64,000 nt of DNA from NCBI GenBank assembly GCA_002009975.1, contig MTLP01000002.1, forward strand, positions 1 to 64,000, given 5' to 3'. Within the stretch, counting starts at the first letter, position 1; each line of letters opens with the position of its first letter. The notes beneath the pieces are model-generated. The model was not told the DNA's origin. It saw only the letters and a program-made list of their open reading frames with translations, and did no database searches. Shown here piece after piece: positions 12,103 through 57,774 of this stretch. The position numbers and the translations under genes were made by a program. The DNA comes from Thermococcus sp. JdFR-02 (GTDB lineage: Archaea > Methanobacteriota_B > Thermococci > Thermococcales > Thermococcaceae).

Positions 12103-12119
12103 TATCTCTTTTGGTGATA
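12103..12119 (+). promoter_or_regulatory. TGM-like site of the GH57 gene
   Basis: TATCTC-TTTTG-GTGATA matches the Thermococcales glycolytic motif TATCAC-N5-GTGATA at 11 of 12 positions. It lies downstream of a TATA-like CTTTATTTA (about 12082-12090), the position at which Tgr represses glycolytic and starch-use genes. Its right half also forms the ribosome site. Confidence 0.65.
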
Positions 12120-12121
12120 CA

Positions 12122-14551
12122 ATGCGTAAGGTTAGCATACTTTTAGCTGTGTTGCTGTTCTTCTCATTAGTTCCATATTCAAGCTCTCAAGAAAGCTTTG
12201 AAGTTTCAGAAATCGGTTTTAGACTTGTAAGCTGGAATCTCGATGGACAAAACATCATAGATGCTGGCGAAAGGGGAGCTATGGGGAAAAGCTATCCTCT
12301 CTGGGATTGGCTTTTGAACGAACCTTGGCCCGGTTCCCTAGCAACTAACAAGTACAAAATCCAAAGAGAGGGGAACAGAGTAACAGGGACAACAAAAGTT
12401 GGAGACGTTCTTGTTGAAAAAATCTTTGAAGTTCTCAACAAAAATAAGGCAAAGTTAACTGTAAAACTTACAAATGAGGGGGAAGATGTATTCAGAAGTG
12501 AAGTCAATTGGGATGGCTTTTCTTTAGGATATACCATGGCTTGGGCTGGCTATTTGGGAAAGCCCGGAGGGGAAAAGCAAATTTGGATTGATGAAACTTT
12601 GCACATTGAAAACAAGAATTGGGTCAGAATTGGAACAAAAGTTAAAGCTTTTGGCTTAATTGACTTCGATGAGGACTTAATAGCCTTGATCTTTCCAAAA
12701 GAAGAGAATACAGCTTTATGGCTTGAGAGTTCTGGATGGGGATTAGAAACGAGAGCAGAGTTTGAGACTTTAGAATTAAGACCAAAAGAGAGCAAAACTT
12801 TTGAATTTGAAATTTTCATTGGAGAAATCGAAGACTTAAAGCTAAGCTACCCAGAGATTTACAAATCTTTGAAGCCACAAATTACAAAGGAAAATTACAA
12901 AATAAGCTTTGAAACTCCAGATTTTCCAAGTGAAGGAGAGCAAATCCAAGTCAAAGTTAAGCTTACACCAAAAGAACCCGTTGAAGGCTCTGGAACTTTA
13001 AAGGTTCAGCTGAGCTGTGGTGAGAGTAAAGAGATCAAAGTTCCATTGAATCAAGAGAGTGAAATAGCTTTGAGGGGGAAAGCCCAAAAAGGATGTCAAG
13101 TCTCTGCAAGCTTAGAAATTAACGGCAAGATAATTTCAAGCGCAAAGAAAATGTTAAGTGTTTTTACGAAGGGTGAAAAACCTCTTTATGTAGTTTTTAT
13201 TTGGCATCACCATCAAAGCCCCGGTGTATTTCCAAATGGAACTTTACATGGACCTTGGGCTTTAGTTCACACCTATGAAGACGAGCTTAAACCATATTAT
13301 CCCGGAGGAGCTTACTATGTTCACGCATACCTCTTAGAAAAATATCCCCAGATTAAAATGACCTATCACCTATCGCCTTCTCTGCTTTGGCAGTGGAATT
13401 TAACGAATTCTCAATGGTGTCAAAGCTATCCAAAATATCAGTGTTTTGATAGGAATAGTAAGGAGGCAAAAAAGGTTCAAGAGGCAATGAAGCTCTACAA
13501 AGATCTGTATTCCAAAGGGCAGATTGAAATACTCTCAAGCTACTTTGCTCATCCAATAAGCGGATACATAGCAGAAAAATACAATTGGCTTGACCTCCTC
13601 GATTATGAGCTTTCTCTAGGAATAAACACAACAAAGGAAGTCTTGGGAGTTCAGGCTAAGGGGCTTTGGCTCCCAGAGATGGCGTTTAGTCCAAAGCTAA
13701 TTCCACTTTTGGAAAAGCATAACGTTAAATACTTTGCTTTAGATGATCAGTGCCATTTAAAGGTAATGTATCCTTACAGCCCTTACCATCTCTACAAAAT
13801 TGGAAACTCAAGCATGCTAGTTCTTTTCAGAGATCACAGACTAAGCGACGATTTTGCGTTCAACAATAACTTCAGAAGTGAAGAAAGGGCAAAAGCTAAG
13901 GCAAAAGAAATCGTTGAGAAGATTTTAAGCGTTAGGGAAAAAGATCCAAATGCAGAGGTAGTGACAATAGCGGCAGATGGCGAAAATTGGATGATCTTCT
14001 CAAACAATCCTCCTCTAACAGGGGTTTACTTTGAAGCATTGCTCCAATATCTAAGCAAGGCTCAAGAGAAGGGCTTAATAAAAACTGTAACGTTTGAAGA
14101 GATCACTAAGGAATTGAAGCCCTACAAAGAAATAACGCCCTTACAAACTTCCTGGCTCTGCTCTTGGGATAAGTGGACAAGAGAGAGGAAAGCAAAGCAA
14201 GAACCAATGTGGAAAAAGGACGAAGAAGTCTACGCCCTAATTCAGAAGTATAAACAAAAATGTGGAGAGGATAAAGTCTATTACAAAGCTCTCTACGGCT
14301 TTGCACAAGCCATGGATAGCGACTTTTATTGGGCTGAATTCATCTTTGATAAACACGTCTATGCTTGGCTTGATTGGACAGAGAACCTTGTAAAAGAAAA
14401 TCTTGAGAAATGTGAGATAGAGCAAACGATTAAAGTTAGTGAAACTAGAACCGAAACACCAACAACTCAAAAAGAAAAAGCCATTTGTGGTCCGGGAGCA
14501 ATTATTGGAGTTGCTTTACTGTCTTTATTGATATTAAGGAGAAGACGTTAA
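12122..14551 (+). CDS. Secreted GH57 alpha-amylase/pullulanase-type enzyme with CGP-CTERM anchor
   Basis: An 809-residue surface enzyme. Residues 1-25 are a signal peptide. About 30-270 is a beta-rich domain, about 270-350 a smaller beta domain. The GH57 domain begins near residue 355 (VFIWHHHQSPG); the catalytic nucleophile is E519 in LWLPEMAF and the acid/base is D619 in AADGENW. A threonine-rich linker precedes ICGPGAIIGVALLSLLIL and four arginines: the CGP-CTERM signal of Thermococcales surface proteins, with the Cys near residue 789. It should hydrolyse alpha-glucans outside the cell. ATG 12122 follows GGTGATAC. A TGM-like site at 12103-12119 suggests control by Tgr. Confidence 0.92.
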   Translation: MRKVSILLAVLLFFSLVPYSSSQESFEVSEIGFRLVSWNLDGQNIIDAGERGAMGKSYPLWDWLLNEPWPGSLATNKYKIQREGNRVTGTTKVGDVLVEKIFEVLNKNKAKLTVKLTNEGEDVFRSEVNWDGFSLGYTMAWAGYLGKPGGEKQIWIDETLHIENKNWVRIGTKVKAFGLIDFDEDLIALIFPKEENTALWLESSGWGLETRAEFETLELRPKESKTFEFEIFIGEIEDLKLSYPEIYKSLKPQITKENYKISFETPDFPSEGEQIQVKVKLTPKEPVEGSGTLKVQLSCGESKEIKVPLNQESEIALRGKAQKGCQVSASLEINGKIISSAKKMLSVFTKGEKPLYVVFIWHHHQSPGVFPNGTLHGPWALVHTYEDELKPYYPGGAYYVHAYLLEKYPQIKMTYHLSPSLLWQWNLTNSQWCQSYPKYQCFDRNSKEAKKVQEAMKLYKDLYSKGQIEILSSYFAHPISGYIAEKYNWLDLLDYELSLGINTTKEVLGVQAKGLWLPEMAFSPKLIPLLEKHNVKYFALDDQCHLKVMYPYSPYHLYKIGNSSMLVLFRDHRLSDDFAFNNNFRSEERAKAKAKEIVEKILSVREKDPNAEVVTIAADGENWMIFSNNPPLTGVYFEALLQYLSKAQEKGLIKTVTFEEITKELKPYKEITPLQTSWLCSWDKWTRERKAKQEPMWKKDEEVYALIQKYKQKCGEDKVYYKALYGFAQAMDSDFYWAEFIFDKHVYAWLDWTENLVKENLEKCEIEQTIKVSETRTETPTTQKEKAICGPGAIIGVALLSLLILRRRR

Positions 14552-14757
14552 TCTTCTTCATTATTCCTTTTCAGGCTTGCAGTGCAATTTAAAACTAAAG
14601 ATTTATCAGATTTTAGCCTATTCCATGTAGAGTTAGAGTATTAAGTCCCTAAACTCATCCTTCACTCTTTTTATTTTGCAAAAACATAATAATCCGCTCA
14701 AAAATTATAAAAGAAACAAATAAAAACTAAGCCGGCAATATATATTGGGGATATATA

Positions 14758-16155
14758 GTGAAAGATAGTGAAATAGACGAAGCCTTAGAAATTATTGCCG
14801 CAATAGAGGATGATTATGATAAGGTTGTCACGTTAAGCACGATTTTATCAATGATAAACGATCCCAACAACCCAAGCTATTCAAAAATTCTCTTCAAAGC
14901 TTTGGAAATAATTGAAAACATCACAAACAAGTACAATAAAGTTAGTGCCATTCTTACCCTTGCCAAAGCCGTGAAATCGGCTGATTCAAAATTGTATAAG
15001 AACTTAATAGAAATGAGTCAGCTTGAAGCAAGGGATATTATGAATAAAAAGGCAAGAGCTAGAGCATTTATTGAGATAGCCCTAGAAACAGCTTTTGATG
15101 ACATATTCTTAACTACTTATGAGAAGGCTATAGATGCCATAGCAGAGATAAGCATACTTGAGGACAGGGAAGAAACTCTGCTGTTCTTTATAGAAGGGCT
15201 TACTGAAAGAGGGAAGAAAAAAGAAGCTGTGGTACTCTTAGATGGATTTGTTGATCCTTATTATCATGTCCTCGCTTTGTCGTCCATAATGGGAACTCTC
15301 GCCAAAGAAAATGATCCCGCATATATAGATTTCATGAAAAAAGCCTTGATGAATATAGCAAACATAAAATCCGAATATATGAGAGACTGGGCTCTTAGTG
15401 ATATATGCTCCAATTTAGCTGAGGCTGGGAAGATTAATGAAGCACTGGCTATTTCAAAGAACATAAAATCAGAGAATGCAAAGATTTCAGCAATGGTTAA
15501 GATTATCCTTGAGCTTGTGGAGATGGGAGAGATAAAGAAAGCAAACAGAATGGCTGCCCTTATTTCAAACGATGTCTATAAGTCTAAAATAAAAGCTAAG
15601 ATGGCAATAAAACTTGTTAGGCTTGACAAATTCGATGAGGCAATAGATTTAGCACTCTCAATCAAAAAGCCAGAGTATAGAGATTTAGTTTTTAGGGATA
15701 TTGCCTCAGAACTTGCTCAAAACAGACATTTTGAGAAGGCATTGGAAGTAATAGATAACATAAACGATCTGTACCAAAAGGTTATGGCTCTCATAAAGAT
15801 AGCCATGGAATTCCTTGAAATTGGTGATTCAAGATACTATAAGGTGCTTGACAAAGCAGTGGAGATTGCAAATGAAATTGAGAATCCCCAGAAAAAGTCT
15901 TCAGCTTTGTCGATAATAAGCACTTTAATGGCTAGTGTAAGTTTAAGGAACAACATTAGAAACATCATAACGATGAAAATAAGGGATGCAGAGGTGTATA
16001 TAAACAAAAGACAATACGATAAAGCCTTAAGGGAATATATTGAAGCCAAGGAACTTGCAAAAAATGCCAACATGAGAATATTTGAGCTTGAATTGGAGAA
16101 GCGCATAGAGGCGCTAAAGAAGCAGCTCTCTCAAAGCACTTCAGAATCCGATTAA
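14758..16155 (+). CDS. Helical-repeat (TPR-like) protein
   Basis: A 465-residue all-helical protein with GTG start. Some eleven or twelve helix pairs of 30-40 residues recur, with A-x-x-x-A spacing and repeated motifs such as DEALEIIAAIEDDYDKVVTL, NEALAISKNI and EKALEVIDNI. This is TPR-type packing used as a protein-binding scaffold. No enzymatic motif or signal peptide is present, so it is probably cytoplasmic. The ribosome site is weak (GGGGAT at 14747-14752) after a TATA-like AAAATTATAAAAG near 14700. The partner is unknown. The 206 bases upstream contain only this promoter. Confidence 0.65.
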   Translation: MKDSEIDEALEIIAAIEDDYDKVVTLSTILSMINDPNNPSYSKILFKALEIIENITNKYNKVSAILTLAKAVKSADSKLYKNLIEMSQLEARDIMNKKARARAFIEIALETAFDDIFLTTYEKAIDAIAEISILEDREETLLFFIEGLTERGKKKEAVVLLDGFVDPYYHVLALSSIMGTLAKENDPAYIDFMKKALMNIANIKSEYMRDWALSDICSNLAEAGKINEALAISKNIKSENAKISAMVKIILELVEMGEIKKANRMAALISNDVYKSKIKAKMAIKLVRLDKFDEAIDLALSIKKPEYRDLVFRDIASELAQNRHFEKALEVIDNINDLYQKVMALIKIAMEFLEIGDSRYYKVLDKAVEIANEIENPQKKSSALSIISTLMASVSLRNNIRNIITMKIRDAEVYINKRQYDKALREYIEAKELAKNANMRIFELELEKRIEALKKQLSQSTSESD

Positions 16156-16172
16156 ATGTTACTGTTTTATTT

Positions 16173-16946
16173 TTAGACCTCCGTTTTTGTTTTCAATTTC
16201 CAGCCATCGATGTTTAAACCACCCATTTTGTCAAAAACATATAGTATCAGCTCTTCCAAGCTTTCAAGCTCTTCGTCCTCAATAGCTTCTAAAAACAGTG
16301 AAACAAATTTTTCATCAGGAAATTCCTCAAATAGATAGGCTCTTCTAAAATTTTCATCTATGAAAAGGCGATAGACTTTACTTGCTGGAGGAACTTCAAC
16401 GCAGAGAAACTTTGAATAAACTTCAAGGGCTTTATTGAGCGTTAAATAGTAGAGATAACCAAAACTTGGGTCTTCTCTTTCTTTCGCGTCTTTTAAACCA
16501 TCCAAACCGTCCCAAAGGAAGTATTTAACTGTTTCAACCCAAACATCATCGGGCTTTTTAAAGGGCTTTTTCATGTATTCTAACGCTTCTTTCTTAAGCT
16601 CCTCAATTATTCCCGTCTTGTCAAAGAGAACTTTGCCAATTGTGATAATCCTTGCAGCACTCCTCTTGTTCTGCTTAAAGTCTTTTTCAAAATAGTGTCT
16701 AATCTGTCTGGGTGGGTTTGCAAAGTATTCAATTAAAACGCCATTGATTATCCTGTTCCCTCTCTCACGCCAATCAACATCATTTGAAAGCACGATGTAG
16801 ACATCAACGTCAGAATACTTAGTTTCCATACCTATTGCATAACTCCCTGTAAGCAGGGCAGCTTCAACAAAGTCCTTTTCCTTCCATTCCTCAAGGAACT
16901 TTTCTAAAGCGAGTTGCCAATTCATTTTATCTGTTGAATAAATCAT
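16173..16946 (-). CDS. Nucleotidyltransferase-domain protein
   Basis: A 257-residue protein with the polymerase-beta-type nucleotidyltransferase signature: GS at 34-35 and the metal-binding pair D46-x-D48 in YSDVDVYIVL, plus a later glutamate in VLIEYF as the probable third carboxylate. The C-terminal half is helical with an HEPN-like look. Substrate is unknown; relatives include aminoglycoside adenylyltransferases and toxin-antitoxin enzymes. Its ATG overlaps the stop of the upstream amidohydrolase gene (ATGA at 16943-16946), so the two are translationally coupled. Confidence 0.8.
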   Translation of the reverse strand: MIYSTDKMNWQLALEKFLEEWKEKDFVEAALLTGSYAIGMETKYSDVDVYIVLSNDVDWRERGNRIINGVLIEYFANPPRQIRHYFEKDFKQNKRSAARIITIGKVLFDKTGIIEELKKEALEYMKKPFKKPDDVWVETVKYFLWDGLDGLKDAKEREDPSFGYLYYLTLNKALEVYSKFLCVEVPPASKVYRLFIDENFRRAYLFEEFPDEKFVSLFLEAIEDEELESLEELILYVFDKMGGLNIDGWKLKTKTEV

Positions 16947-17740
16947 AATCTCAACAGCTCCTTTGCATTTCTGTACAGAATACTTATCTTTTCTTCTTTT
17001 GTTATAGGAAGATTTTCAATAATCTCAATCTGTCTTTTGGCTCCATACTCCTTTGGAGTCTGCTCTAAAACATAATCACTTCCGAAGAGAAATTTGTTGG
17101 CACCTAAAGCCCTAATGTATTTTGCGAAATTTTCAATTCCAATTTTCTCTGTAACGGTTATTAAACTGTAGGATGTGTCAACAAATACATTATCCATTGA
17201 GGCAATTTGCAGAAAATCCTCAAAATGAAACGAACCACCCATATGAGCTAGGATTATGGTTGTTTCTGAAGCTATGAAAGGCAAAAGTGCGTAATCCTCA
17301 ATTGTGTTTATCCAAGGAGTATATAAACCCTTAAAGTATAAAGACGAGAAATCTCCAAGCATTGCATGTATTAAGACTGGAATTTTTAATTTGCCGGCAA
17401 CTTTTAGAACCTTCCATACATGGGGATGCCTAAGACAAAAGCCTTGCATATCTGGATGGAGCTTTAACCCTTTAAGGTTGAGGTCGTTAATGGCACATTC
17501 AAGTTCTTCTATGGCTTTATCAGCAGGATTTGGTACAACAGAAGCAAATCCTATTAATCTTTTGGGTTCAGAGTTGACAAGTTCGGCAATGTAGTCGTTG
17601 GAGATATATGGAGCCACAGGAAGCACGACAGAAATGCTTATGCCTTCGTTATCCATCCACTCTAAGAGTTTTTGAGCTGCATCTATTGGTTTTTGTTTCA
17701 TGTCAAATGCAGGGTGAACGTGGAAATCGATAATTTTCAT
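16943..17740 (-). CDS. Amidohydrolase-family (TIM-barrel) metal hydrolase
   Basis: A 265-residue protein of the amidohydrolase-2 (decarboxylase-like) family. The metal-binding D-F-H-V-H is at 5-9, followed by a GLKLHPDMQGF strand, PVLIHAM, ILAHMGGS and the C-terminal FGSDYVLEQTP, whose Asp is the catalytic metal ligand. Such enzymes hydrolyse or decarboxylate small molecules; the substrate is unknown. A GGTGAG ribosome site precedes the ATG. It is first in a two-gene operon with a nucleotidyltransferase, a pairing I cannot explain. Confidence 0.85.
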   Translation of the reverse strand: MKIIDFHVHPAFDMKQKPIDAAQKLLEWMDNEGISISVVLPVAPYISNDYIAELVNSEPKRLIGFASVVPNPADKAIEELECAINDLNLKGLKLHPDMQGFCLRHPHVWKVLKVAGKLKIPVLIHAMLGDFSSLYFKGLYTPWINTIEDYALLPFIASETTIILAHMGGSFHFEDFLQIASMDNVFVDTSYSLITVTEKIGIENFAKYIRALGANKFLFGSDYVLEQTPKEYGAKRQIEIIENLPITKEEKISILYRNAKELLRL

Positions 17741-18099
17741 AACTTCTCACCATCCTAAATATACTTTCCCTAGTGATTAACTTAAGAGTATCGATGTTAT
17801 ATTTCGGCAACAACAAGGGAATTTTTATTTTTGATCTTATAAAGAGACAAATTTTTCAAAGTCAATCTCGATATTTGTCTTTACTTTTTAATAAAGTTAT
17901 CAAGTCAAACTTACATTCTCTCTATTTTTTCGGTGGAAAAGTTTTATATATTTTAAGTGTAAAACTATTTATGAAAATTTCCTCATGCTTGGGAGACAAA
18001 TGAGGAGGGCATTGTTGAGCCTGTTGTGATATATGCTGTGGAGAGAAAGGCTTTGAATGTGAAGACTGGAGTTCCAGAGGCCTGTGAGGGGAGTAGCAA
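17741..18099 (+). other. Intergenic stretch with a promoter and a possible gene remnant
   Basis: A TATA-like GTTTTATATA lies at 17941-17950. The ATG at 18000 opens only nine codons, but the +1 frame is open from 17975 to a TAA at about 18118 and reads like protein (EEGIVEPVVIYAVERKAL, then a cysteine-containing end) without a start codon. This may be a decayed gene or chance. Nothing else is seen. Confidence 0.3.
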
Positions 18100-18372
18100 A
18101 TGTATTCAAACATAACCTTTCACTGGAAGCTTTGGATTAAGGAGATATTAAAACGTCTTTCAGGATACTTAGCAGCAACTGTAGTTGTATGGTCAATGAG
18201 TTCTTATAAAACAGCAGTAATGGTGCTTTCAGGGCTGATGATTATGGAACTTGTTATATCGGCATCCGTATTCCTAACCAGAAAGATTTACAAGATAAAA
18301 AAAGCAGAATTGCTGGGATTTGTAATAGGAATTTTAGTTGGAGGAATCATTGTTAGCATTATATTCCGGTAA
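18100..18372 (+). CDS. Small membrane protein, unknown
   Basis: A 90-residue protein with two or three hydrophobic segments (about 20-37, 40-57 and 68-88), ending in LLGFVIGILVGGIIVSIIF. A GAGGGGAG ribosome site precedes the ATG. No family is recognised. It is the first of three small membrane ORFs in a row on the plus strand, separated by stretches without intact genes. Composition and context suggest an accessory or decaying locus. Confidence 0.5.
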   Translation: MYSNITFHWKLWIKEILKRLSGYLAATVVVWSMSSYKTAVMVLSGLMIMELVISASVFLTRKIYKIKKAELLGFVIGILVGGIIVSIIFR

Positions 18373-36653: not shown

Positions 36654-37934
36654 TTGAAGGCAGTGATTCTAGCAGCTGGCTTAGGTACAAGGCTAGGTTC
36701 CTTAACAGAAGAAGTTCCAAAGGGGCTTTTAAGAATAGCTGGGCGAGAAATACTTTACCGCACAATGAAAGCTTTAGAGGAGCTTGGGATTGAAGAATTT
36801 ATTGTGGTTACAAATCCCAAGTATAAAAGCAAATTTGAGGAGTTTTTAAACAGAGAAGGCTTCAAACATAAGATTATCCTGAATAAAAGCCCTGAAAGGG
36901 GGAATGGATACTCCCTCTACTTAGCTAAGGATTATGTTAGTGATAAATTTGTTTTAGTAATGAGCGATCATCTCTATGAGAAGGCTTTTTTTGAGAGAGC
37001 CTTGAAATGTGAAGGACTGGTAATTGACAAAATTGGAATGTTTATAAACAAGAAAGAGGCAACAAAGGTTTTATACGAAAATGAGAGAATTAGAGACATT
37101 GGAAAGCATTTAGAGAGATGGGATGGATTTGATACAGGCTTCTTTATCCTAACTCCAGAAATTTTTAGTTATGCTGAAGAGATTATCAAGGAAAAAGCAA
37201 AAGCAGAATTGAGTGAAATAGTAAAGAGAGCAAAGCTTAAAGTTAGCGAAGTAAGCGGTTACTTTTGGGTGGATATTGACACTCCAAGCGAATTAAAAAG
37301 AGCTAGGCGAGAAATAATAAAGAACTCAATAAAGGGAGTTGGAGATGGATTGATTTCAAGAACAATAAATAGGAAAATCTCAACAAGGATATCGGGGGTT
37401 CTCATTGATTACGTTACTCCAAATCAAATGACTGTGATAACTTTCTTCCTTGGAATCGTTTCAGCGTTAGTTGCTTTGTTTAATATACCTTTAGCTGGTG
37501 CTCTATATCAAGTAAGCTCAATTCTTGATGGTGTTGATGGAGAGATAGCTAGGGCTTCAATGAGAATGAGCAAGTTTGGTGGATGGATGGATTCCATTTT
37601 AGATAGATACGTTGATTTCGCATTTCTTTTAGCGTTAGCATTTTCAATAAATCCGAGTCTCAGGCTTTGGGTCATTATAGCTTTAGCGATATTCGGTTCA
37701 TTTATGGTTAGTTATTCAACCGAGCGTTACAAGGCAGCTTATTCCAAAGATATCTATAAAGAGATCCCTGCCATGAAATATTTAATTGGTAAGAGAGACG
37801 AGAGAATATTTCTAGCGATGATCTTCTGTTTAATTAATAGAATACCAGAGCTTTTCGTCTTATTGGCAATGATAACCAATTTACGCATAGTTTTAACGGT
37901 TTGGCTAGCATGGAAGCATGACAAAAATATTTAA
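36654..37934 (+). CDS. Bifunctional IPC transferase and DIPP synthase
   Basis: A 426-residue fused enzyme that makes di-myo-inositol phosphate phosphate, the direct precursor of the thermoprotectant DIP. Residues 1-235 are a CTP:inositol-1-phosphate cytidylyltransferase with VILAAGLGTRLGSLTEEVPK at the N-terminus. Residues 250-426 are a membrane CDP-alcohol phosphotransferase domain with the motif D-G-x2-A-R-x8-G-x3-D-x3-D in ILDGVDGEIARASMRMSKFG and WMDSILDRYVDF. The TTG start is supported by GGAGGTGAT. The inositol-phosphate synthase gene follows 220 bases later with its own promoter. Confidence 0.95.
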   Translation: MKAVILAAGLGTRLGSLTEEVPKGLLRIAGREILYRTMKALEELGIEEFIVVTNPKYKSKFEEFLNREGFKHKIILNKSPERGNGYSLYLAKDYVSDKFVLVMSDHLYEKAFFERALKCEGLVIDKIGMFINKKEATKVLYENERIRDIGKHLERWDGFDTGFFILTPEIFSYAEEIIKEKAKAELSEIVKRAKLKVSEVSGYFWVDIDTPSELKRARREIIKNSIKGVGDGLISRTINRKISTRISGVLIDYVTPNQMTVITFFLGIVSALVALFNIPLAGALYQVSSILDGVDGEIARASMRMSKFGGWMDSILDRYVDFAFLLALAFSINPSLRLWVIIALAIFGSFMVSYSTERYKAAYSKDIYKEIPAMKYLIGKRDERIFLAMIFCLINRIPELFVLLAMITNLRIVLTVWLAWKHDKNI

Positions 37935-38046: not shown

Positions 38047-38063
38047 TATCACCGAAAGTGTTA
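38047..38063 (+). promoter_or_regulatory. TGM-like site of the inositol-1-phosphate synthase gene
   Basis: TATCAC-CGAAA-GTGTTA matches TATCAC-N5-GTGATA at 11 of 12 positions and ends where a TATA-like GTTATAAAC (38060-38068) begins. A site just upstream of the TATA box is where Tgr activates gluconeogenic genes. Other repeats in 37935-38154 are TGACA/TGTCA (about 37979-37993) and TGTAA/TTACA (38086-38099). Confidence 0.6.
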
Positions 38064-38154
38064 TAAACTCAAAGAGACTTTAAGCTGTAAAATATTACAA
38101 AACCAAAAACTATTTAATATTTATAAAATATAGCAAATGCAGGAGGTTAGAAAG

Positions 38155-39306
38155 ATGGTTAAGGTTGTGATATTAGGACAGGGATACGTCGGAAGCATTT
38201 TTGCCCTTGGAGTTGAGAGGATAAAAAATGGTGATCTCGGCTATTATGGAGTCCCATTGGCAAACGAACTCCCAATAAAAATTGAGGAGATTGAGATTGT
38301 TGGGAGTTATGACGTCGATAAAAGCAAGATTGGAAGATCTCTTTATGAAGTAGTAAAGCTGTATTGGGATAATAATATCCCAGAGAGTCTAAAAAGCATT
38401 GTTGTAAGAAAGGGGATTCATTTAAGAAGCTTAAAAAATCTTCCAATTGAGGCAGAAGGATTGGAGGATGAAATGACATTAAGTGAAGTCGTTGAAAAGT
38501 TGATTGAAGAGTGGAAAGATCTTAAGGCAGAGGTCTTTATAAACGTCTGCACAACTGAAGCTTCTGTTCCCTTTGAAAGTAAGGAAGAGCTGATAAAGGC
38601 AATTGAAGAGAATAATAAGGAAAGATTAACCGCTACTCAAGTTTACACCTATGCAATTGCCAAATATGCCAAAGAGGTTGGAGGAGCTGCTTTTGTTAAT
38701 GCAATTCCAACCTTAATAGCAAATGATCCCGCCTTTGTTGAGCTTGCAAAGGAAAGCAACTTAGTGATCTTTGGAGATGACGGAGCAACAGGAGCAACAC
38801 CTTTAACAGCTGATATTCTCTCTCACTTAGCCCAAAGGAACAGGTATGTTAAGGATATTGCCCAATTCAACATAGGAGGAAATACGGACTTCTTAGCATT
38901 GACAGACAAAGAGAGAAACAAGAGTAAAGAATTTACAAAATCAAGCATTGTTAAAGACATTCTCGGTTATGATGCGCCACACTACATAAAGCCCACCGGT
39001 TTCTTAGAACCTTTGGGAGACAAGAAGTTCATTGCAATGCACATCGAGTATGTGAGCTTCAACGGAGCAGTTGATGAGCTTATGATTACTGGAAGAATAA
39101 ATGATAGCCCTGCATTGGCAGGTCTTTTAGTGGATTTGGCAAGGCTTGGGAAGTTAGCTATCGAGAGGAGAGAGTTTGGAACAGTCTATCCAGTGAATGC
39201 GTTTTACATGAAAAACCCCGGTCCAAAAGAAATGGGCAACATTCCAAGGATAATTGCCTATGAAAAAATGAGAGTTTGGGCTGGATTAAATCCAAAATGG
39301 TTCTGA
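38155..39306 (+). CDS. myo-Inositol-1-phosphate synthase
   Basis: A 383-residue NAD-dependent enzyme isomerising glucose 6-phosphate to L-myo-inositol 1-phosphate, the first step of DIP synthesis. The Rossmann motif GQGYVGSIFALGVERIKNG is near residues 8-26; later blocks are NVCTTEASVPF, VNAIPTLIANDPAFVELA, GDDGATGATPLTADILSHLA and NIGGNTDFLAL, all typical, with catalytic lysines in KSSIVKDIL and YIKPTGFLEP. ATG 38155 follows GGAGGT; ATG 38137 is less likely. It follows the DIPP synthase gene and has a TGM-like site. Confidence 0.95.
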   Translation: MVKVVILGQGYVGSIFALGVERIKNGDLGYYGVPLANELPIKIEEIEIVGSYDVDKSKIGRSLYEVVKLYWDNNIPESLKSIVVRKGIHLRSLKNLPIEAEGLEDEMTLSEVVEKLIEEWKDLKAEVFINVCTTEASVPFESKEELIKAIEENNKERLTATQVYTYAIAKYAKEVGGAAFVNAIPTLIANDPAFVELAKESNLVIFGDDGATGATPLTADILSHLAQRNRYVKDIAQFNIGGNTDFLALTDKERNKSKEFTKSSIVKDILGYDAPHYIKPTGFLEPLGDKKFIAMHIEYVSFNGAVDELMITGRINDSPALAGLLVDLARLGKLAIERREFGTVYPVNAFYMKNPGPKEMGNIPRIIAYEKMRVWAGLNPKWF

Positions 39307-40019: not shown

Positions 40020-40036
40020 TATCACCTTTAGTGTTT
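40020..40036 (+). promoter_or_regulatory. TGM-like site upstream of pgk
   Basis: TATCAC-CTTTA-GTGTTT matches the motif at 10 of 12 positions, with a perfect left half. TATA candidates for pgk lie just after it (TTTAAATAAC about 40034-40043, or CCTTTTAAC), so the site is upstream of the TATA box, the activator placement. Confidence 0.55.
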
Positions 40037-40082
40037 AAATAACCTTTTAACTGCTTTTTATAAACATTTTCTTGGTGGTGGA

Positions 40083-41312
40083 ATGTTTAAGCTCACGGAT
40101 TTTGATTATCACAATAAAACTGTGTTTTTAAGAGCTGATTTAAATTCACCAGTGAAAAATGGGAAGATAATCAGCGATGCAAGGTTTAGGGGAGTTTTGC
40201 CCACGATACTGTATCTTCTTGAGCATGGAGCAAAAGTTGTAGTCTCAACCCATCAAAGCAAGCCGTACAATGAAGATTATATAACAACGGAACAGCATGC
40301 AGAGATCTTGAGCAATCTCCTAGGTCAGGAGGTTGAGTATGTTGAAGACATTTTTGGGAAATATGCGAGGGATAAAATAAGAGCTTTAAAATCGGGTGAA
40401 ATAATAATGCTTGAAAATCTCCGCTTTGCCGCTGAAGAGGTTAAATATAAACCTTTAGAGGACTGTGAGAGGACGTATTTTGTACGAAAGCTGGTGCCTC
40501 TAATAGATTATGTGGTAAATGATGCCTTTGCAGCTTCCCATCGCTCACAACCTTCTCTGGTAGGATTTGCACGCCTAAAGCCAATGATAATGGGCTTTTT
40601 AATGGAGAAGGAAATTAAAGCTCTAAAGAAGGCTTATGAGAGTGATGAGAGACCTAAAATTTATGTATTGGGTGGAGCAAAAGTTGGTGATTCTTTACAA
40701 GTTGCAGAAAACGTGCTAACTCAAGGAAAAGCCGATTTAATTCTAACTGGCGGCTTAGTCGGACAAATCTTCACATTAGCTAAAGGCTTTGATTTAGGTG
40801 ATGCCAATATAGAGTTCTTGGAGAAAAAGGGATTAATAGAACTGGTGGATTGGGCAGAGAGGCTTTTAGACATGTTCTATACCTTAATTAGAACGCCCGT
40901 AGATTTTGCCATAAATTATAGAGGAGAAAGGTTTGAGATTGATTTGCTAAGCGATGAAAAGAAGTTTTTTGATGAATATGCTATAATGGACATTGGAAGC
41001 AGAACTGTAGAAAAGTATGCACAGATATTAAAAGAGGCTAGCATTATAGTTGCTAACGGTCCAATGGGAATATTTGAAGTTGAAGAGTTTGCTAAAGGAA
41101 CGGTAGGCGTGTTTAGAGCTATAGGAAAAAGTGGTGCATTCTCTATTATTGGGGGAGGACATAGTATAGCCAGCATTTACAAGTATAACATTCAAGGAAT
41201 TAGTCATATAAGCACTGGCGGTGGAGCAATGTTGAATTTCTTTGGGGGTAAAGGTTTACCTGTTTTAGAAGCTTTGAAGATAAGCTATGAAATTTTTAAA
41301 GATAAAATTTAG
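40083..41312 (+). CDS. pgk: Phosphoglycerate kinase
   Basis: A 409-residue enzyme interconverting 1,3-bisphosphoglycerate and 3-phosphoglycerate; in Thermococcales it serves mainly gluconeogenesis, since glycolysis bypasses it with GAPOR. The N-terminal substrate block VFLRADLNSPVKNGKI is at 16-31; further blocks are MLENLRFA, VNDAFAASHRSQPSLVGF, YVLGGAKVGDSL and the C-terminal TGGGAMLNFFGGKGLPVLEAL. The final nucleotide-binding GG..H region (FSIIGGGHSIA) is present. ATG follows GGTGGTGG. A TGM-like site precedes the promoter. It converges on the ABC permease gene with 13 bases between stops. Confidence 0.97.
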   Translation: MFKLTDFDYHNKTVFLRADLNSPVKNGKIISDARFRGVLPTILYLLEHGAKVVVSTHQSKPYNEDYITTEQHAEILSNLLGQEVEYVEDIFGKYARDKIRALKSGEIIMLENLRFAAEEVKYKPLEDCERTYFVRKLVPLIDYVVNDAFAASHRSQPSLVGFARLKPMIMGFLMEKEIKALKKAYESDERPKIYVLGGAKVGDSLQVAENVLTQGKADLILTGGLVGQIFTLAKGFDLGDANIEFLEKKGLIELVDWAERLLDMFYTLIRTPVDFAINYRGERFEIDLLSDEKKFFDEYAIMDIGSRTVEKYAQILKEASIIVANGPMGIFEVEEFAKGTVGVFRAIGKSGAFSIIGGGHSIASIYKYNIQGISHISTGGGAMLNFFGGKGLPVLEALKISYEIFKDKI

Positions 41313-51733: not shown

Positions 51734-52362
51734 ATGCCTTTGTCCATGTCCTCAACTTTAGCCCAAGAATACATGGAAGAATGAGCTTCACGATGGCATT
51801 GCCTGCATAAAGTGATTAAATTGTTCGGATTATTATTTAGTCTATCATTATCTATATGGTGTACCTCTAAATATCCATATCCACAATCTGAACATCTGTA
51901 ATTATATCTTTCAAGAATGATTTTGCGGAAGGATTCAGTAGTACTTGTGTGTTCTTTCTCTATTTCTTCTTCAATTTCTCTTACCATCTTTTTCGTTAAT
52001 TTGATCAGAATTCTACTTTTAACAGAAAACATGAAGTTATGTGTAATCTCTCTTTGGATTCTATTTTTAAAATTCTCAACAACTTCTTCAAAGTTAGTAT
52101 TCACGAGTATTTCGATGGGTTTTTCAAAGAGTTCATTAAAGAAATTCCCAAGAACAGGTTTAATCTCTCTTAGTTTCTTATTTTGGTGAAGTTTGTAATG
52201 ACACTGTCTGCATAGAACTATCAAGTTTTCTAAATCCCTATTTTCAACATCTCCATCCTTATAGTGGATATCAAGATAATTGTAATCACAATTTTGGCAC
52301 TTATACCCATCTCTTTTCAAAATCTTTTTCCTAATATGGGGTGGTACTCCATCATTTCCCAT
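51706..52362 (-). CDS. Tandem HNH endonuclease-type protein, first copy degenerate
   Basis: A 218-residue protein with two HNH (ββα-metal) domains. The N-terminal copy (about 17-60) has zinc cysteines C22, C25, C51 and C54, but IHYKD gives H33-Y34. The C-terminal copy (about 150-195) has cysteines C157, C160, C186 and C189 and an intact VHHID (H168-H169), N181 and LCRQCHREAH. The second His of the HH pair is the general base in HNH enzymes, so the first copy is probably inactive and only binds DNA. A helical linker joins them. ATG 52362 follows GAGGG; a TTG at 52389 is in frame. Confidence 0.75.
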   Translation of the reverse strand: MGNDGVPPHIRKKILKRDGYKCQNCDYNYLDIHYKDGDVENRDLENLIVLCRQCHYKLHQNKKLREIKPVLGNFFNELFEKPIEILVNTNFEEVVENFKNRIQREITHNFMFSVKSRILIKLTKKMVREIEEEIEKEHTSTTESFRKIILERYNYRCSDCGYGYLEVHHIDNDRLNNNPNNLITLCRQCHREAHSSMYSWAKVEDMDKGISRFYTILS

Positions 52363-52391
52363 AAACCCTCGCCTTGAATTAATATTCAAAG

Positions 52392-52524
52392 ACGCTCATC
52401 TATTTATTGTGACTGAAAGGTTTTAAGTTTTCTTCCTGAGTGGAGTTATTTGGACTTTCTGGCGTTGATTTGAATGTGGAAATGGTTTTCGGAACTAATA
52501 TCAGCCAAATACGTAGATGAGCGT
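52392..52524. repeat. Perfect 11-bp inverted repeat beside the nuclease island
   Basis: ACGCTCATCTA (52392-52402) and TAGATGAGCGT (52514-52524) are exact inverted copies flanking 111 bases upstream of the HNH gene. This could be a small mobile element, an end of an inserted segment, or a binding site pair. The interval and the bases to 52717 hold no clear gene. Confidence 0.5.
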
Positions 52525-52639
52525 ACGATCTATTTTTGGAAAAAAGGAGCGAGAAGATAGCCAACGAAATCATTAAAAGGGTTAAAGGTACAGAAAATTG
52601 ATCTGTAACAACAGTAGTTGTTTTGTGATGCTCCTTCAT
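52400..52639 (-). pseudogene. Possible remnant of a surface-protein C-terminal anchor
   Basis: A 79-codon frame reads HHKTTTVVTDQFSVPLTLLM, then ISLAIFSLLFSKNR: a threonine-rich segment, a single membrane helix and basic residues, as at the end of archaeal surface proteins. It has no ribosome site before its ATG and the frame opens only after a TAA. Probably a fragment or chance. Confidence 0.25.
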
Positions 52640-52717
52640 TTTTGTATCAGGAACACTTAGCAGAATAATTCAACTAAATATCTTTCATTCGAGCTTTTCT
52701 CTTTTTGTGAGTATCCT

Positions 52718-53773
52718 TTACTCACTACATTCTAAGACCTTTGGCTTTTCTCCTAACAACTCTGCAGCAGTTAAAACTCTCTTATTGAGCCTTTCTCCAG
52801 CTTCCCAAACTTCTTTTGTATGCTCCTTAAAGTGAACTTCTCTCGGCAAGTGATGATCATAAATTATTACTTCCGCATCAATGCCCTTCACTATCTTCAC
52901 CGCATTATCTACTGCTCTCCTCAAATTGGTCTTGTTGAGAAGATAACCGAGCATATAAGTCATAGGACCGTCTAAGATGAGCACGTTTGGGTTTTCTTTA
53001 ATTATCCACTCCGCATAGTCTTCTATTATTGGACCATTTAAATCGCTCGAATGAATTAGCTTTTCATCTTCATATTCAACCACAGTTGCAAAAACCCACC
53101 CAACCCTAGAAAACTCAATTCCATGGAATAGAGGGTTTGTAAACCTAACTTTGGTTTCTCCAAATTGAAATTCTCTTCCATCAGCAAAGAAAACTTGCAA
53201 ATTTTTAAATTTCATTTCAGGAATTTTGGGGCTGTTGTTCCACTTTTTAGTTCTATTTTTGAACCATTTGAAACCTTTCTCAAGCAACTGTTTCCTTCTC
53301 ACATTATAATCTCCAAAGTCTTTGCTTCTTGCTATGGGAAGTTCATCCATTGGATTTGAGTACTCCTTAGCTTTGGTTTCTTCTATTATGTTCTCCAATT
53401 TTGCGTCTCCAAAATGTTCGCAGAGATTTGAATAAAAAGCCTCAGCCCTCTTCCTTTGTGAATCGTTTATGTATTCGTTTGGATTCTTAGCGAGGAGTAT
53501 CTTTCCTCTATAAATCTCCATATTATGGGGAAAGTAGTGGTCGTAGTGATAGTGGGAGATAATGATAACATCAGCTTTTTCGCTTGCTTTTATTATCGCT
53601 TCTTCTCCCTCAACCAACCACTTGATCTTTTCTTCTTCACTTGCTGGAAAGCTTGGATGCATAACAGCAATTCCTGGATCAATTAGAACTGAAACATCTG
53701 GAGTTTTAACTAGTACGCAAGAGCTTTTAGCACCTAAAGAATCGAACCATATTGGTCTAAAGGAGAGCTTCAT
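52718..53773 (-). CDS. Metallo-beta-lactamase-fold hydrolase (UPF0282 type)
   Basis: A 351-residue MBL-fold protein with the metal motif SHYHYDHYFPHN near residue 80 and further ligands in NPLFHGIEF, IHSSDLNGP and YDHHLPREVHF. The DSLGAKSSCVLVKTPDVSVLIDPGIAVMHP N-terminus in pieces matches the archaeal UPF0282 family. Relatives act on nucleic acids or small molecules; the substrate of this branch is not known. The frame is intact and of usual length. It precedes an MFS gene on the same strand with 16 bases between. Confidence 0.88.
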   Translation of the reverse strand: MKLSFRPIWFDSLGAKSSCVLVKTPDVSVLIDPGIAVMHPSFPASEEEKIKWLVEGEEAIIKASEKADVIIISHYHYDHYFPHNMEIYRGKILLAKNPNEYINDSQRKRAEAFYSNLCEHFGDAKLENIIEETKAKEYSNPMDELPIARSKDFGDYNVRRKQLLEKGFKWFKNRTKKWNNSPKIPEMKFKNLQVFFADGREFQFGETKVRFTNPLFHGIEFSRVGWVFATVVEYEDEKLIHSSDLNGPIIEDYAEWIIKENPNVLILDGPMTYMLGYLLNKTNLRRAVDNAVKIVKGIDAEVIIYDHHLPREVHFKEHTKEVWEAGERLNKRVLTAAELLGEKPKVLECSE

Positions 53774-53789
53774 GTTATGAAATTACACT

Positions 53790-54884
53790 CTAAGATTTAA
53801 ATCTTAACCTCATCAAAAACACTCCTAAAGCCAAAATCCCAAAAATTCCTACAAATACGAATCCAAGCTTAAAGCCTAGAAACCCAACTACAATTGGTCC
53901 CAAAGCCTGCCCTATATCCTTTATGCTCTCCAAAAAGCCCAAAGCAGTTCCCTTAAGCTTTGAGATTTCAGTTGCTAATGGTTTGGTTGAGGCTTCACTT
54001 ATTGAAGCACCCAAGGAAAATAAAACCGCCCCAGCAATTATGAAGATCAGAGACTTAGAGAAGGCAAGTAAAAGCATGGCTAAGCTAACCAAGAACATTC
54101 CTAAAGCTATAGGCTTTATCCTCCCAATTTTGTCGCTCAAATAACCAGCATAAGGTTTTACAACTGCCATTATTGAAATCTCTATCGTTAAAATTAATCC
54201 AGAGAGCCAGGCTTTGTTTTCCAAAAAGTAGAAGAGGGGCAAAAAGGTTTCTATGCTTTGATAAGCCATGTAAACTGAGGCATCTAATAAGCCAAGCAAA
54301 AGCAAATCAAAGCTGAATGAGAATTCAAATCTCCTCAATTCTTTTCCAGCATCTGGAAAAGTGAAGGTTAAAGCGAGAACTATGAATCCAAAGAGAGAAC
54401 AAAGAAGAAAAACAATCCAAAAGCCAGCAAAGTAAATTAGAGTTCCAGCCAAAAGAGGTGCAAAAGCTCTTCCTATGAGTGTGGAAGAGCTTAGAATCCC
54501 CATAAACGTGCCTTTCCTCTCTGGAAATAGATCGCTTATTAAAGCCAAAGAAACTGGAACAAATATAGCTGTTGCAATTCCATAGTATGCTCTAACTAAA
54601 GCTAAAACCAGTGCATCTTTTGCAAGAAAGTAAAGGAGAGGAGCAGAGAAAAACACAAAGCCACTAATCTTTAACAACTTTTTCCTTCCATAAATGTCGC
54701 TCAAGAGTCCAGAAGCAAAGTTAACAAAGATTCCAGTTATCGTTGATGCTGAAGCAACTAATCCAATTTCGCCCTTTGTTAAGCCTAAGCTTTTGGCATA
54801 GAGTGGTAAAGTTGGGGATTTACTCATTGTTGAGCCGAGTATTGCAAAGAATCCCGCAACTAAGATGAGGTAGAGCTTTCTCAT
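53790..54884 (-). CDS. Major facilitator superfamily transporter
   Basis: A 364-residue protein with about 11-12 membrane segments. The loop FASGLLSDIYGRKKLLKISG after segment 2 and the similar YAGYLSDKIGRIKPIAL after segment 8 are the two MFS signature loops of multidrug-type exporters. Substrate unknown. No ribosome site precedes the ATG; a TTTTTATTTT box about 28 bases upstream suggests a leaderless mRNA. The MBL-fold gene follows on the same strand, probably in the same transcript. Confidence 0.87.
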   Translation of the reverse strand: MRKLYLILVAGFFAILGSTMSKSPTLPLYAKSLGLTKGEIGLVASASTITGIFVNFASGLLSDIYGRKKLLKISGFVFFSAPLLYFLAKDALVLALVRAYYGIATAIFVPVSLALISDLFPERKGTFMGILSSSTLIGRAFAPLLAGTLIYFAGFWIVFLLCSLFGFIVLALTFTFPDAGKELRRFEFSFSFDLLLLGLLDASVYMAYQSIETFLPLFYFLENKAWLSGLILTIEISIMAVVKPYAGYLSDKIGRIKPIALGMFLVSLAMLLLAFSKSLIFIIAGAVLFSLGASISEASTKPLATEISKLKGTALGFLESIKDIGQALGPIVVGFLGFKLGFVFVGIFGILALGVFLMRLRFKS

Positions 54885-54935
54885 GATTGAAATTTTGGAT
54901 GAAAGAAAATAAAAATCTTCTTGAAACTTTTGAGA

Positions 54936-55247
54936 TCACTCCTCTCTAACCGCTCCTCTTTCTTCTTCCTTTTGTCCAAAAAGCCCCACTAAATCGTGAA
55001 TTATTACAAAATCAATCAAAGCACTTATTCCAGAGCTTAAAGAACCAGCCATAAGCATTAAAACAGAGAAAAATAGGTCAAGACCTTTATAGATTAGTGT
55101 AATCTTCACAATCCTTTTATTCCCTCTAATAAGTCCCCAAGCTAAAAGAAAGTTCAGAACTCCAAAAGCCAAGTAAATGTTCGATTCCTTAGAATAATAG
55201 AGCAAAAAGAAAGCTTGAAGGAAAAGTAAATAAGCCGCTAACTTCAT
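54936..55247 (-). CDS. Small four-segment membrane protein
   Basis: A 103-residue protein with four hydrophobic segments (LAAYLLFLQAFFLLYY, IYLAFGVLNFLLAWGLI, LDLFFSVLMLMAGS and ALIDFVIIHDLVGLF) and a charged C-terminus. No family is recognised. Its ATG overlaps the stop of the PLP enzyme gene (ATGA at 55244-55247), so it is translated with it; it could be an associated transporter or unrelated. Confidence 0.6.
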   Translation of the reverse strand: MKLAAYLLFLQAFFLLYYSKESNIYLAFGVLNFLLAWGLIRGNKRIVKITLIYKGLDLFFSVLMLMAGSLSSGISALIDFVIIHDLVGLFGQKEEERGAVREE

Positions 55248-56164
55248 TCTTCACCACTAAAGTAAGATTCAAAGGCTTCGACATATTTAAACCCATCGTC
55301 TGGGAATATCAAAACATAAACTCCCTTTCCATACTTCTCCCTAACCTTCCCAAAGGCTTTAACAACTGCACCAGAGCTTAACCCTATTAAAAGCCCTTCT
55401 TTTCTTGCTATCTCTATTGAGCCCTCTATAGCCTCCTTCCTTGTCACCTCAATTACCTCATCAACATCCACTTGGAAGAACCACTTTGGTTTAGTTTCTA
55501 AGCGCTTTATCCCCGGAATCTTCTCGCCCTGAGCTGGAACGACGCCTATAACAGCTACATCCTTGTATTTCTCTTTGAAGTGCTTTGCTATACCTCCAAT
55601 GTGCCCGGAAGTACCAATACCTGCTATAATTACATTTGGCTTTTTCCCTATGCTCTTTAACTGCTCATCAATTTCTTTTGCCGTAATTTTGTAGTGAACC
55701 TCAAAGTTGTCATCGTTTTCAAATTGGTTGAGGTTTACAGCATTAGCTTTCTCAGCCTCTTTTTTAACAAAGTTTACCATCTCTGGATCTATTGTTTCAA
55801 ACTCCGTTTTAACCACTTCAGCACCAAGAACTTTAAGCAAGATTTGTGTTGTTTGTGGTGTTGGCTTTGGGAGATAAACTCTAAACTTAATTCCAAGTAT
55901 GTTTGATAAGGAAGCCATTGCAATTCCAACGTTTCCAGAGGTGGCTTCATAGAGTTTATCCTTCAGATCACCCCGCTTTTTAGCCTTCATTAGCATGTTC
56001 CAAACTGCTCTATCTTTTATGCTCTTGCTGTAGGGGTTGAAAAATTCAAGCTTTGCAAATACCTCCTGCTCATCAGTTGATAATCTTGAAAGCTTTACCA
56101 TGGGAGTGGGCCAACCAGCTTCGAGCAAATCTAAGGTACTTCCAAAAATATTTGTGCATTTCAT
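55244..56164 (-). CDS. Cysteine synthase-family PLP enzyme
   Basis: A 306-residue fold-type II PLP enzyme. The PLP lysine is in NPYSKSIKDRAVWNML, the phosphate/substrate loop is EATSGNVGIAMAS, and the PLP phosphate site is AGIGTSGHIGGIAKHF; the late LLIGLSSGAVVKAF is also typical of O-acetyl/O-phosphoserine sulfhydrylases. In Thermococcales relatives make cysteine from O-phosphoserine. The substrate cannot be fixed from sequence. ATG 56164 follows GGTGA by five bases; GTG 56173 is less likely. It is coupled to a small membrane protein. Confidence 0.88.
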   Translation of the reverse strand: MKCTNIFGSTLDLLEAGWPTPMVKLSRLSTDEQEVFAKLEFFNPYSKSIKDRAVWNMLMKAKKRGDLKDKLYEATSGNVGIAMASLSNILGIKFRVYLPKPTPQTTQILLKVLGAEVVKTEFETIDPEMVNFVKKEAEKANAVNLNQFENDDNFEVHYKITAKEIDEQLKSIGKKPNVIIAGIGTSGHIGGIAKHFKEKYKDVAVIGVVPAQGEKIPGIKRLETKPKWFFQVDVDEVIEVTRKEAIEGSIEIARKEGLLIGLSSGAVVKAFGKVREKYGKGVYVLIFPDDGFKYVEAFESYFSGEE

Positions 56165-56265
56165 TTCTCTCACCTAAACTTTGCTCTGTATAAGTGCTTT
56201 AAAAAGAAGCGATTGCGGCAAAAGGTTACTCATAACAAAAGTCAAAATTGAAAATAGCACCCAAA

Positions 56266-56871
56266 TCAAACAAATCTGCTTACTTCCTCAACACTTTTTC
56301 TTCTTTTCCTTGGAATTTCTTCTCTTGCTGAATATCCAACTGTAATAAGCCCAACTAAGAAATATTTTTCATCCAAGCCAGCTATCTCCTTAAGCTCTTC
56401 TTCTATATATGGAAAGTTTGCTACTCCAATATAACAAGTCCCCAAGTCTAGCTCAACGGCTTTTAGCATTAGGTTTTGTATAGCCATTGCCGCACTTTCA
56501 ATTGCCCAATAAAACTCCAACTCACTATATTTCTCGCACTTTAAGACATTAATCTCTTTGTTTATGAAAACTCCGATGTAAACTGGTGCTTTATACATGC
56601 CCTCCTCGAACCTCTGCTTTAGTTTTTTCATCTTCTCCTCTGATAAGCCTCTGTTTTTGTAATACTCTAAATGACCTTCCAAAATTAGCTTGTAAACCTT
56701 TTCTCTAACTTCTTCGCTTTTATATATAACAAAGAGCCAATTTTCTAAGCCACTTGCCGTTGGAGCCCTTATTGCAGCTTCGATAAGCTCCTTTAATTTT
56801 TCCTTCTCAACTTCTCGCTCTTGATAAAACCTCACAGAAGCGCGTTTGTTTATAGCTTCGCTCAATTCCAT
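56266..56871 (-). CDS. Nitroreductase-family flavoprotein
   Basis: A 201-residue FMN-binding protein of the nitroreductase family. It starts MELSEAINKRASVRFYQEREVE, where the Arg-Ala-Ser-Val-Arg segment binds the FMN phosphate, followed by AAIRAPTASGLENWLFVI, IESAAMAIQNLMLKAVELDLGTCYIG and the C-terminal RKRRKSVEEV. The reduced substrate is unknown. ATG 56871 follows GGTGA by five bases; GTG 56880 is less likely. It lies alone between the PLP enzyme gene and a divergent isomerase gene. Confidence 0.9.
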   Translation of the reverse strand: MELSEAINKRASVRFYQEREVEKEKLKELIEAAIRAPTASGLENWLFVIYKSEEVREKVYKLILEGHLEYYKNRGLSEEKMKKLKQRFEEGMYKAPVYIGVFINKEINVLKCEKYSELEFYWAIESAAMAIQNLMLKAVELDLGTCYIGVANFPYIEEELKEIAGLDEKYFLVGLITVGYSAREEIPRKRRKSVEEVSRFV

Positions 56872-56986
56872 ACAATTCACCGATTAACGTCAAAATTTTA
56901 CTTTATATTAATTTTTTGAAAACCAAAGGTTTATTGCATGGGATAAAGTTATATAGCGTAGGAAAGAGTCTCTTTAGGTGAAAAAA

Positions 56987-57700
56987 ATGTATGGCTGGAG
57001 AGGTAGAGTCGGTTTGATAGTCCCTTCATCAAACACAACAATGGAAATGGAGTTACATGAAGCTCTTCCAGAGGGAGTCTCACTTCACACCTCACGCATG
57101 CCTCTAAGGGAAGTTACCGAAGAGGAATTAATAAAAATGAGTGCTTTAGCTGTGGAGAGTGCAAGGCTTCTAAGAGATGCCCAAGTGGATCTAATCCTTT
57201 ATGGATGTACAAGTGGCAGTTTCATTGGTGGAATCGATTTTGAAAAGGAAATTGAAGAAAAGATAGAGCGTGAAGTTAATACTCCTGTAATCACCACAAG
57301 CTCTGCTGTTATTGAAGCGTTGAGAATTTTAGATGCCCAGCAAATTATCGTAATAACCCCTTATACCAATGATATAAATCAAAGGGAGAGGGAGTTTCTA
57401 GAATCCAATGAATTTGAAGTTCTCGATATTAGAGGCATAGGAATTGTAGAAAACACAAAAATTGGAAAGCTTGAGCCCTATGAAGCTTATAGAATGGCTA
57501 AAGCAATGTTTATGGAGGAGGCTGATGCTGTTTTTATAAGCTGCACTAATTTTAGGACTTTTGAAATAATTGAACCTTTAGAGCAGGATTTGGGAATTCC
57601 TGTCGTTACAAGCAATCAAGCATCCTTATGGCTAGCTCTGAGAGAGCTGGATGTAATGGAGAAAATCCCATGGCTTGGGAAGCTTTTAACAGAGTTTTAG
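56987..57700 (+). CDS. Asp/Glu racemase-family protein (maleate isomerase-like)
   Basis: A 237-residue enzyme of the aspartate/glutamate racemase superfamily. The N-terminal VGLIVPSSNTTMEMELHEALP and the two catalytic cysteines, in YGCTSGSFIGG and FISCTNFRTFE, are those of the maleate cis-trans isomerase/arylmalonate decarboxylase branch, with the ending VTSNQASLWLALREL. It could isomerise or decarboxylate a small dicarboxylate; I cannot say which. ATG 56987 follows AGGTGA by five bases. A TATA-like TTATATAGC lies near 56950. It diverges from the nitroreductase gene. Confidence 0.87.
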   Translation: MYGWRGRVGLIVPSSNTTMEMELHEALPEGVSLHTSRMPLREVTEEELIKMSALAVESARLLRDAQVDLILYGCTSGSFIGGIDFEKEIEEKIEREVNTPVITTSSAVIEALRILDAQQIIVITPYTNDINQREREFLESNEFEVLDIRGIGIVENTKIGKLEPYEAYRMAKAMFMEEADAVFISCTNFRTFEIIEPLEQDLGIPVVTSNQASLWLALRELDVMEKIPWLGKLLTEF

Positions 57701-57757
57701 CACTCCATACACCATGGAAAAATTTTTAAATCGAACTTCAGTTTATTACTTAGCTAT

Positions 57758-57774
57758 ATTCACCGAGGGTGATA
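57758..57774 (+). promoter_or_regulatory. TGM-like site of pfkC
   Basis: ATTCAC-CGAGG-GTGATA matches TATCAC-N5-GTGATA at 10 of 12 positions with a perfect right half. It lies downstream of a TATA-like ATTTTTAAAT (57722-57731) and ends four bases before the ATG, doubling as the ribosome site (GGGTGATA). This is the repressor placement of Tgr. Confidence 0.6.

Follow-up and report, generated by a model that had tools for sequence, protein, structure and literature searches.

A 64,000-nucleotide stretch of the genome of Thermococcus sp. JdFR-02 (contig MTLP01000002.1, positions 1 to 64,000; the window, below) carries four sites resembling TGM, the motif TATCAC-N5-GTGATA of the regulators Tgr (TK1769) in Thermococcus kodakarensis and TrmBL1 (PF0124) in Pyrococcus furiosus (PMC4158304, PMC4706686). 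The sites precede genes for a GH57 glycoside hydrolase, myo-inositol-1-phosphate synthase (MIPS), phosphoglycerate kinase (pgk) and ADP-dependent phosphofructokinase (pfkC). A weight matrix and conservation among relatives predict that all four are genuine TGM sites of the Tgr/TrmBL1 regulon; GH57, pfkC and pgk are the expected sugar-metabolism targets, while MIPS appears to be a new one. On balance, we think that all four serve as Tgr/TrmBL1 operators and that at MIPS the operator and a distal promoter (P1) are fused into one element, with P1 repressed when the operator is bound.

Identification of the TGM sites

The four 17-mers proposed by an earlier, sequence-only reading of this DNA are present at 12103-12119 (TATCTCTTTTGGTGATA, GH57), 38047-38063 (TATCACCGAAAGTGTTA, MIPS), 40020-40036 (TATCACCTTTAGTGTTT, pgk) and 57758-57774 (ATTCACCGAGGGTGATA, pfkC), and match the consensus at 11, 11, 10 and 10 of its 12 positions, respectively; all window features located here are on the plus strand. 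Counting consensus matches reveals no enrichment: at up to three mismatches the window holds 20 matches against 21 expected from shuffles, and at up to two mismatches the 2.36 Mb genome holds 107 against 97 for a reversed-pattern control. The sequence-only reading had also proposed scoring the sites against background with a TGM matrix. The matrix used here was trained on 12 sites from the same genome outside the window, none of them from the four tested genes; the training sites were chosen by near-consensus sequence and gene function, and the matrix is hence not fully blind, but it contains zero information from the tested genes. By this measure the four sites are the top four of the window, with MIPS first (18.2 bits), followed by GH57 (17.8 bits), pgk (15.9 bits) and pfkC (15.5 bits), and the fifth position reaches 11.1 bits. 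This is well over random expectation, since 64 kb of random sequence would hold 0 to 0.09 scores at or above that of each site.

Relatives were searched for in 94 Thermococcaceae genomes, from which promoters were sampled, and which fall into the genus groups g1 to g6. Of these, g3 is taken to be Pyrococcus, g4 Thermococcus sensu stricto and g6 a third genus; g2 probably corresponds to Palaeococcus and g5 to the T. litoralis group. Each of the four sites leaves a footprint in related genomes, seen for each gene in between 8 and about 45 promoters of relatives. The pfkC site keeps a constant position and 10 or 11 of the 12 matches in g1, g2, g4, g5 and g6, and the GH57 site is kept in 8/8 orthologues whose 5′ end is intact. 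At pgk, most genomes sampled from g1, g2, g4, g5 and g6 carry a site of the form TATCAC-N5-GTGTT(C/T) or GTGTAT at -63 to -65, albeit in weaker form in some g4 genomes. Identity between genera at pgk is 0.92 in the left half and 0.82 in the right half, compared with 0.34 in the spacer and about 0.3 in the flanks, which reads as a textbook footprint of a predicted operator.

The regulator and its regulon

A profile search for the TrmB regulator domain yields six matches in the genome. One of them, at G000:C10:18512-19534, is the Tgr/TrmBL1 orthologue: it scores 668.2 bits against the TrmBL1 equivalog NF047390.1 (NCBIfam; cut-off 650) and has the reported residues Y49 and D50. Outside the window, exact or one-mismatch TGM sites precede amylase genes, two genes for MalE-like binding proteins, a fructose-1,6-bisphosphate (FBP) aldolase/phosphatase gene and a cupin-like gene just ahead of an ADP-dependent kinase gene; by position and similarity, the last two probably encode glucose-6-phosphate isomerase and glucokinase. 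GAPOR has a TGM with two mismatches. Together, sites and regulator constitute the Tgr/TrmBL1 regulon as described (PMC4158304, PMC4706686).

In g3, the pfkC site accompanies the regulator: it is found in six of the six sampled Tgr-positive genomes and in none of the three Tgr-negative ones. The pgk site of g3 tends likewise to follow Tgr, although G009, which has Tgr, is an exception; the MIPS site is uninformative in this respect. The claim of the sequence-only reading that these are TGM sites of a Tgr regulon is thus borne out by the presence of the regulator, the independent matrix, the footprints and the co-occurrence of site and regulator in Pyrococcus.

Two further sites of this genome deserve mention. 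An exact TGM (L003, G000:C6:42076-42092) precedes a rubrerythrin-like gene that is divergent from a flavorubredoxin-like gene; this may be a redox target of Tgr. A one-mismatch TGM (L010, G000:C7:82105-82121) precedes a gene for a PadR-family regulator, possibly of a second tier.

Site placement at pfkC, GH57 and pgk

Promoters were scored with a matrix for the TFB recognition element (BRE) and TATA box, obtained by expectation maximisation on 40 upstream regions of the window with MIPS held out. Distances are given as TATA centre minus site centre, so that negative values denote a site downstream of the TATA box and positive values a site upstream. Elsewhere in this genome, most sites at amylase, rubrerythrin and GAPOR genes have distances of -22 to -28; two more are at -43 to -47, and MalE-type genes show -8 to -10. 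All of these sites lie downstream of the TATA box or touch it. Upstream sites are found at the probable isomerase gene (+26) and at FBP aldolase/phosphatase (+32). Overall, repressor-type distances range from -8 to -47 and activator-type distances from +20 to +32.

The promoter matrix places the TGM downstream of the TATA box at both GH57 (BRE/TATA 12079..12095, 7.2 bits, within the top 0.2% of window positions) and pfkC (BRE/TATA 57718..57734, 14.8 bits), in the repressor-type geometry that the sequence-only reading had assigned to them. The genes concerned encode a GH57 protein with a signal peptide (12122..14551; Pfam PF03065, 124 bits), the start of which is corrected here to ATG 12122 instead of 12098, and the phosphofructokinase (57779..59170; TIGR02045, 741 bits). 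At both genes GGTGATA, the right half of the TGM, is at the same time a Shine-Dalgarno sequence (within 57758-57779 at pfkC and 12103-12122 at GH57), and TGM scans will therefore also catch plain ribosome-binding sites. At pgk (40083..41312; PF00162), in contrast, the site abuts the upstream side of the BRE (BRE/TATA 40039..40055, 10.2 bits), which begins 3 bp past the TGM, and the TATA distance is +20. Applied to these positions, the published placement rule for Tgr predicts repression of GH57 and pfkC and activation of pgk.

The secreted GH57 protein is patchily distributed, being intact in about 9 of the 94 genomes and broken in G029. Its C-terminal ~50 residues are similar to the ends of many other proteins of the Thermococcaceae and perhaps form a cell-surface anchor. 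The genome also has a divergent second homologue of phosphoglycerate kinase (G000:C29:39-1208, 46% identical), seen in none of the other genomes searched. The gene immediately before pfkC, codirectional with it, belongs to the arylmalonate decarboxylase / Asp-Glu racemase family (56978-57700).

A TGM site overlapping a distal MIPS promoter

The MIPS gene (38155..39306; Pfam PF01658, PF07994) probably starts at ATG 38155, not at 38137, judging by a Shine-Dalgarno sequence (GGAGGT, 38142-38147) and by its relatives. Two BRE/TATA elements precede it. The distal promoter, P1 (AAAGTGTTATAAACTCA, 38055..38071), scores 10.8 bits, above 99.97% of window positions, and overlaps the TGM along its spacer and right half, with the BRE in the spacer and the TATA box in and just past the right half. 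The proximal promoter, P2 (38105..38121), is outscored by P1, at 7.7 bits, and is well placed for the probable start and its Shine-Dalgarno sequence. Relative to the TGM, the TATA distances are +9 (P1) and +59 (P2), and both fall outside the activator-type as well as the repressor-type range of this genome. The sequence-only reading had placed the pgk and MIPS sites alike upstream of the TATA box, as activating sites; this is supported for pgk but not for MIPS, where the placement agrees only in part, as the site overlaps P1 and lies upstream of P2 at a distance.

The conservation of this region is as expected of two overlaid elements. Between genera, identity is 0.90 in the MIPS spacer, 0.97 in the right half and 0.85 in the following five bases; the spacer value, far above that of pgk, is as expected if the BRE lies inside the spacer. 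The left bases TATCA, which lie outside the BRE/TATA, are 0.78 identical between genera against 0.21-0.41 in the flank, as expected for an operator, and are kept in 11 of the 14 genomes that have the block. Decay has hit either component: G079 and G083 retain P1 and have lost the left half-site, whereas G085 retains both TGM halves next to a decayed P1 (score -5.9), a mixed pattern that supports two overlaid functions.

Outside g3, P2 is kept almost throughout, whereas P1 is limited to lineages that carry the TGM. The P2 element (38105-38130), CC(A/G)AAAACTATTTAA(C/T)nnn(C/T)(A/G)TAAAATA, is quasi-palindromic and near-invariant in 79 related promoters, each from a different genome, and its core, TATTTAAYNNNNRTAAAATA, is unique in the genome. 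The quasi-palindrome is a candidate operator of a further regulator. No Phr operator was seen at the MIPS promoter by eye.

Distribution and ownership of the MIPS site

Among the sampled promoters, the MIPS site is present in g1, g2 and most of g5, and absent in g3, g4 and g6. On the MIPS protein tree, whose deep branches are unresolved, its presence requires at least three changes: the two g2 genomes and G000, the genome studied here, carry the site, while g4, g3 and g6 are without it. This would agree with a site of old origin that was lost several times. Upstream of MIPS lies a DIPP synthase gene in G000 and G002; G001 has a different codirectional gene there, and several g5 genomes have a divergent lipoprotein gene. 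Because the site is kept beside MIPS despite these differing neighbours, it is assigned to MIPS. The divergent lipoprotein-type binding-protein gene was considered as an alternative owner and rejected, as the same kind of gene is divergent from MIPS in g6 and some g4 genomes that have no site.

In the window, the neighbour is the bifunctional IPCT/DIPP synthase gene (36654..37934; NF041135.1, 681 bits, above cut-off) for the synthesis of di-myo-inositol phosphate (DIP). Neither consensus counting nor the matrix scan of the window finds a TGM before this gene at 36654. The product of MIPS feeds both DIP and inositol lipids. The suggestion that the regulon includes compatible-solute synthesis was therefore an over-reach, the more so as g3, g4 and g6 have no MIPS site, and it shrinks to MIPS alone, a probable member of the predicted regulon in three genera.

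Proposed mechanism and alternatives

Sequences, regulator, footprints, pfkC co-occurrence and site geometry are observed; the predicted binding, signs of control and physiology would combine as follows. When sugar derived from maltodextrin is lacking, Tgr would be bound at all four sites. At pfkC and GH57 it would sit over the transcription start and repress, and at pgk, where its site adjoins the BRE on the upstream side, it would activate. At MIPS, bound Tgr would bar TBP and TFB from P1 and leave the gene to the separate and widely conserved P2. Sugar would open P1 and send more glucose-6-phosphate into inositol phosphate. Control of MIPS by carbon status is reasonable because the enzyme takes glucose-6-phosphate.

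Alternatively, all four may be Tgr sites with the MIPS site acting as an upstream activator of P2, in which case MIPS would rise together with pgk in gluconeogenic growth. The site does lie upstream of P2, a promoter conserved across the family; activating TrmBL1 sites of P. furiosus reach 156 bp upstream of the promoter (PMC4706686); and pgk and MIPS have the same right half, GTGTT, which the genome offers at just four places. However, the site overlaps the better-scoring P1, and its distance to P2 differs between genera (40-42, 56 or 64-66 bp), unlike the fixed spacing at pgk. In addition, 59 bp exceeds every other activator-type site of this genome, one case at a divergent gene aside. We regard activation of P2 as unlikely, though worth keeping in view. 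Occlusion of P1 by Tgr is moderately favoured over it because the site overlaps P1, fits neither known mode and varies in its distance to P2.

Somewhat less likely still is that only the other three are true Tgr sites, and that the MIPS element, CCGAAAG-TGTTATATA, is just a second promoter with a fortuitous likeness to a TGM. The BRE/TATA-like conservation of spacer, right half and the five bases after it is what such a promoter would show, and G079 and G083 keep P1 in the absence of the left half-site. Against this, TATCA is retained outside the BRE/TATA, G085 has kept both TGM halves while its P1 decayed, and MIPS has the best TGM score in the window. That all four sites are chance matches to a degenerate palindrome, selected for nearness to metabolic genes, is highly improbable: counts at up to two or three mismatches do equal their controls, and at least one one-mismatch match in the genome, before an aIF-1A-like gene, resembles a plain Shine-Dalgarno coincidence, but matrix ranking, footprints and Pyrococcus co-occurrence effectively refute it.

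It is important to point out what weighs against occlusion of P1 at a Tgr operator. The sign of control at MIPS is itself judged by geometry. P1 does not need the operator, as G079 and G083 demonstrate, and the right half at MIPS reads GTGTTA instead of GTGATA in nearly all genomes with the site. The overlap with the Shine-Dalgarno sequence also explains part of the right-half conservation at pfkC and GH57. It is in our view an evenly balanced proposition that some Thermococcaceae (this genome, g2 and g5) place the step from glucose-6-phosphate to inositol phosphate under the sugar sensor that also governs glycolysis and gluconeogenesis, by means of an operator and an alternative promoter fused together.

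Implications and comparison with known systems

The GH57, pfkC and pgk sites carry a well-studied archaeal regulon into a new genus. The MIPS site, if its role is confirmed, ties this regulon to inositol phosphate, from which both inositol lipids and the hyperthermophile solute DIP are made, and the supply of thermoprotectant and inositol lipids would track carbon status besides stress. MIPS also offers a compact two-promoter test case, with one promoter under a putative carbon-source operator and the other with a separate conserved element. In the literature on TrmB-family regulators with myo-inositol, several early papers of the field (van de Werken 2006; Kanai 2007; Lee 2008) aside, MIPS was not found named as a target of Tgr/TrmBL1. 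Absence from the usual laboratory genera, taken as Thermococcus sensu stricto and Pyrococcus, would explain why the site has gone unseen.

Three known systems invite comparison. The orthologous MIPS gene of P. furiosus (PF1616) is induced by heat, with a log2 fold change of 4.0 (PMC10746257); in the Pyrococcus genomes examined, the MIPS promoter is another one, lacking the TGM and, in 7 of 8, the P2 sequence. In the malE (TM) promoter of P. furiosus, TrmB binds a site of the form TACT-N3-AGTA that overlaps BRE and TATA box, and represses (PMC4158304, PMC4706686). The operator over the BRE/TATA is what MIPS P1 has in common with this promoter, although motif and regulator differ and MIPS has a second promoter downstream. 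Finally, the likeness to the Tgr/TrmBL1 regulon itself lies in regulator family, motif, kinds of target (pfk, gapor, amylases, binding proteins, fbp) and site placement at pfkC, GH57 and pgk; the difference lies in the addition of MIPS, which is lineage-restricted and whose site, in contrast to the others of this genome, overlaps a BRE/TATA and lies 40-66 bp from a second promoter.

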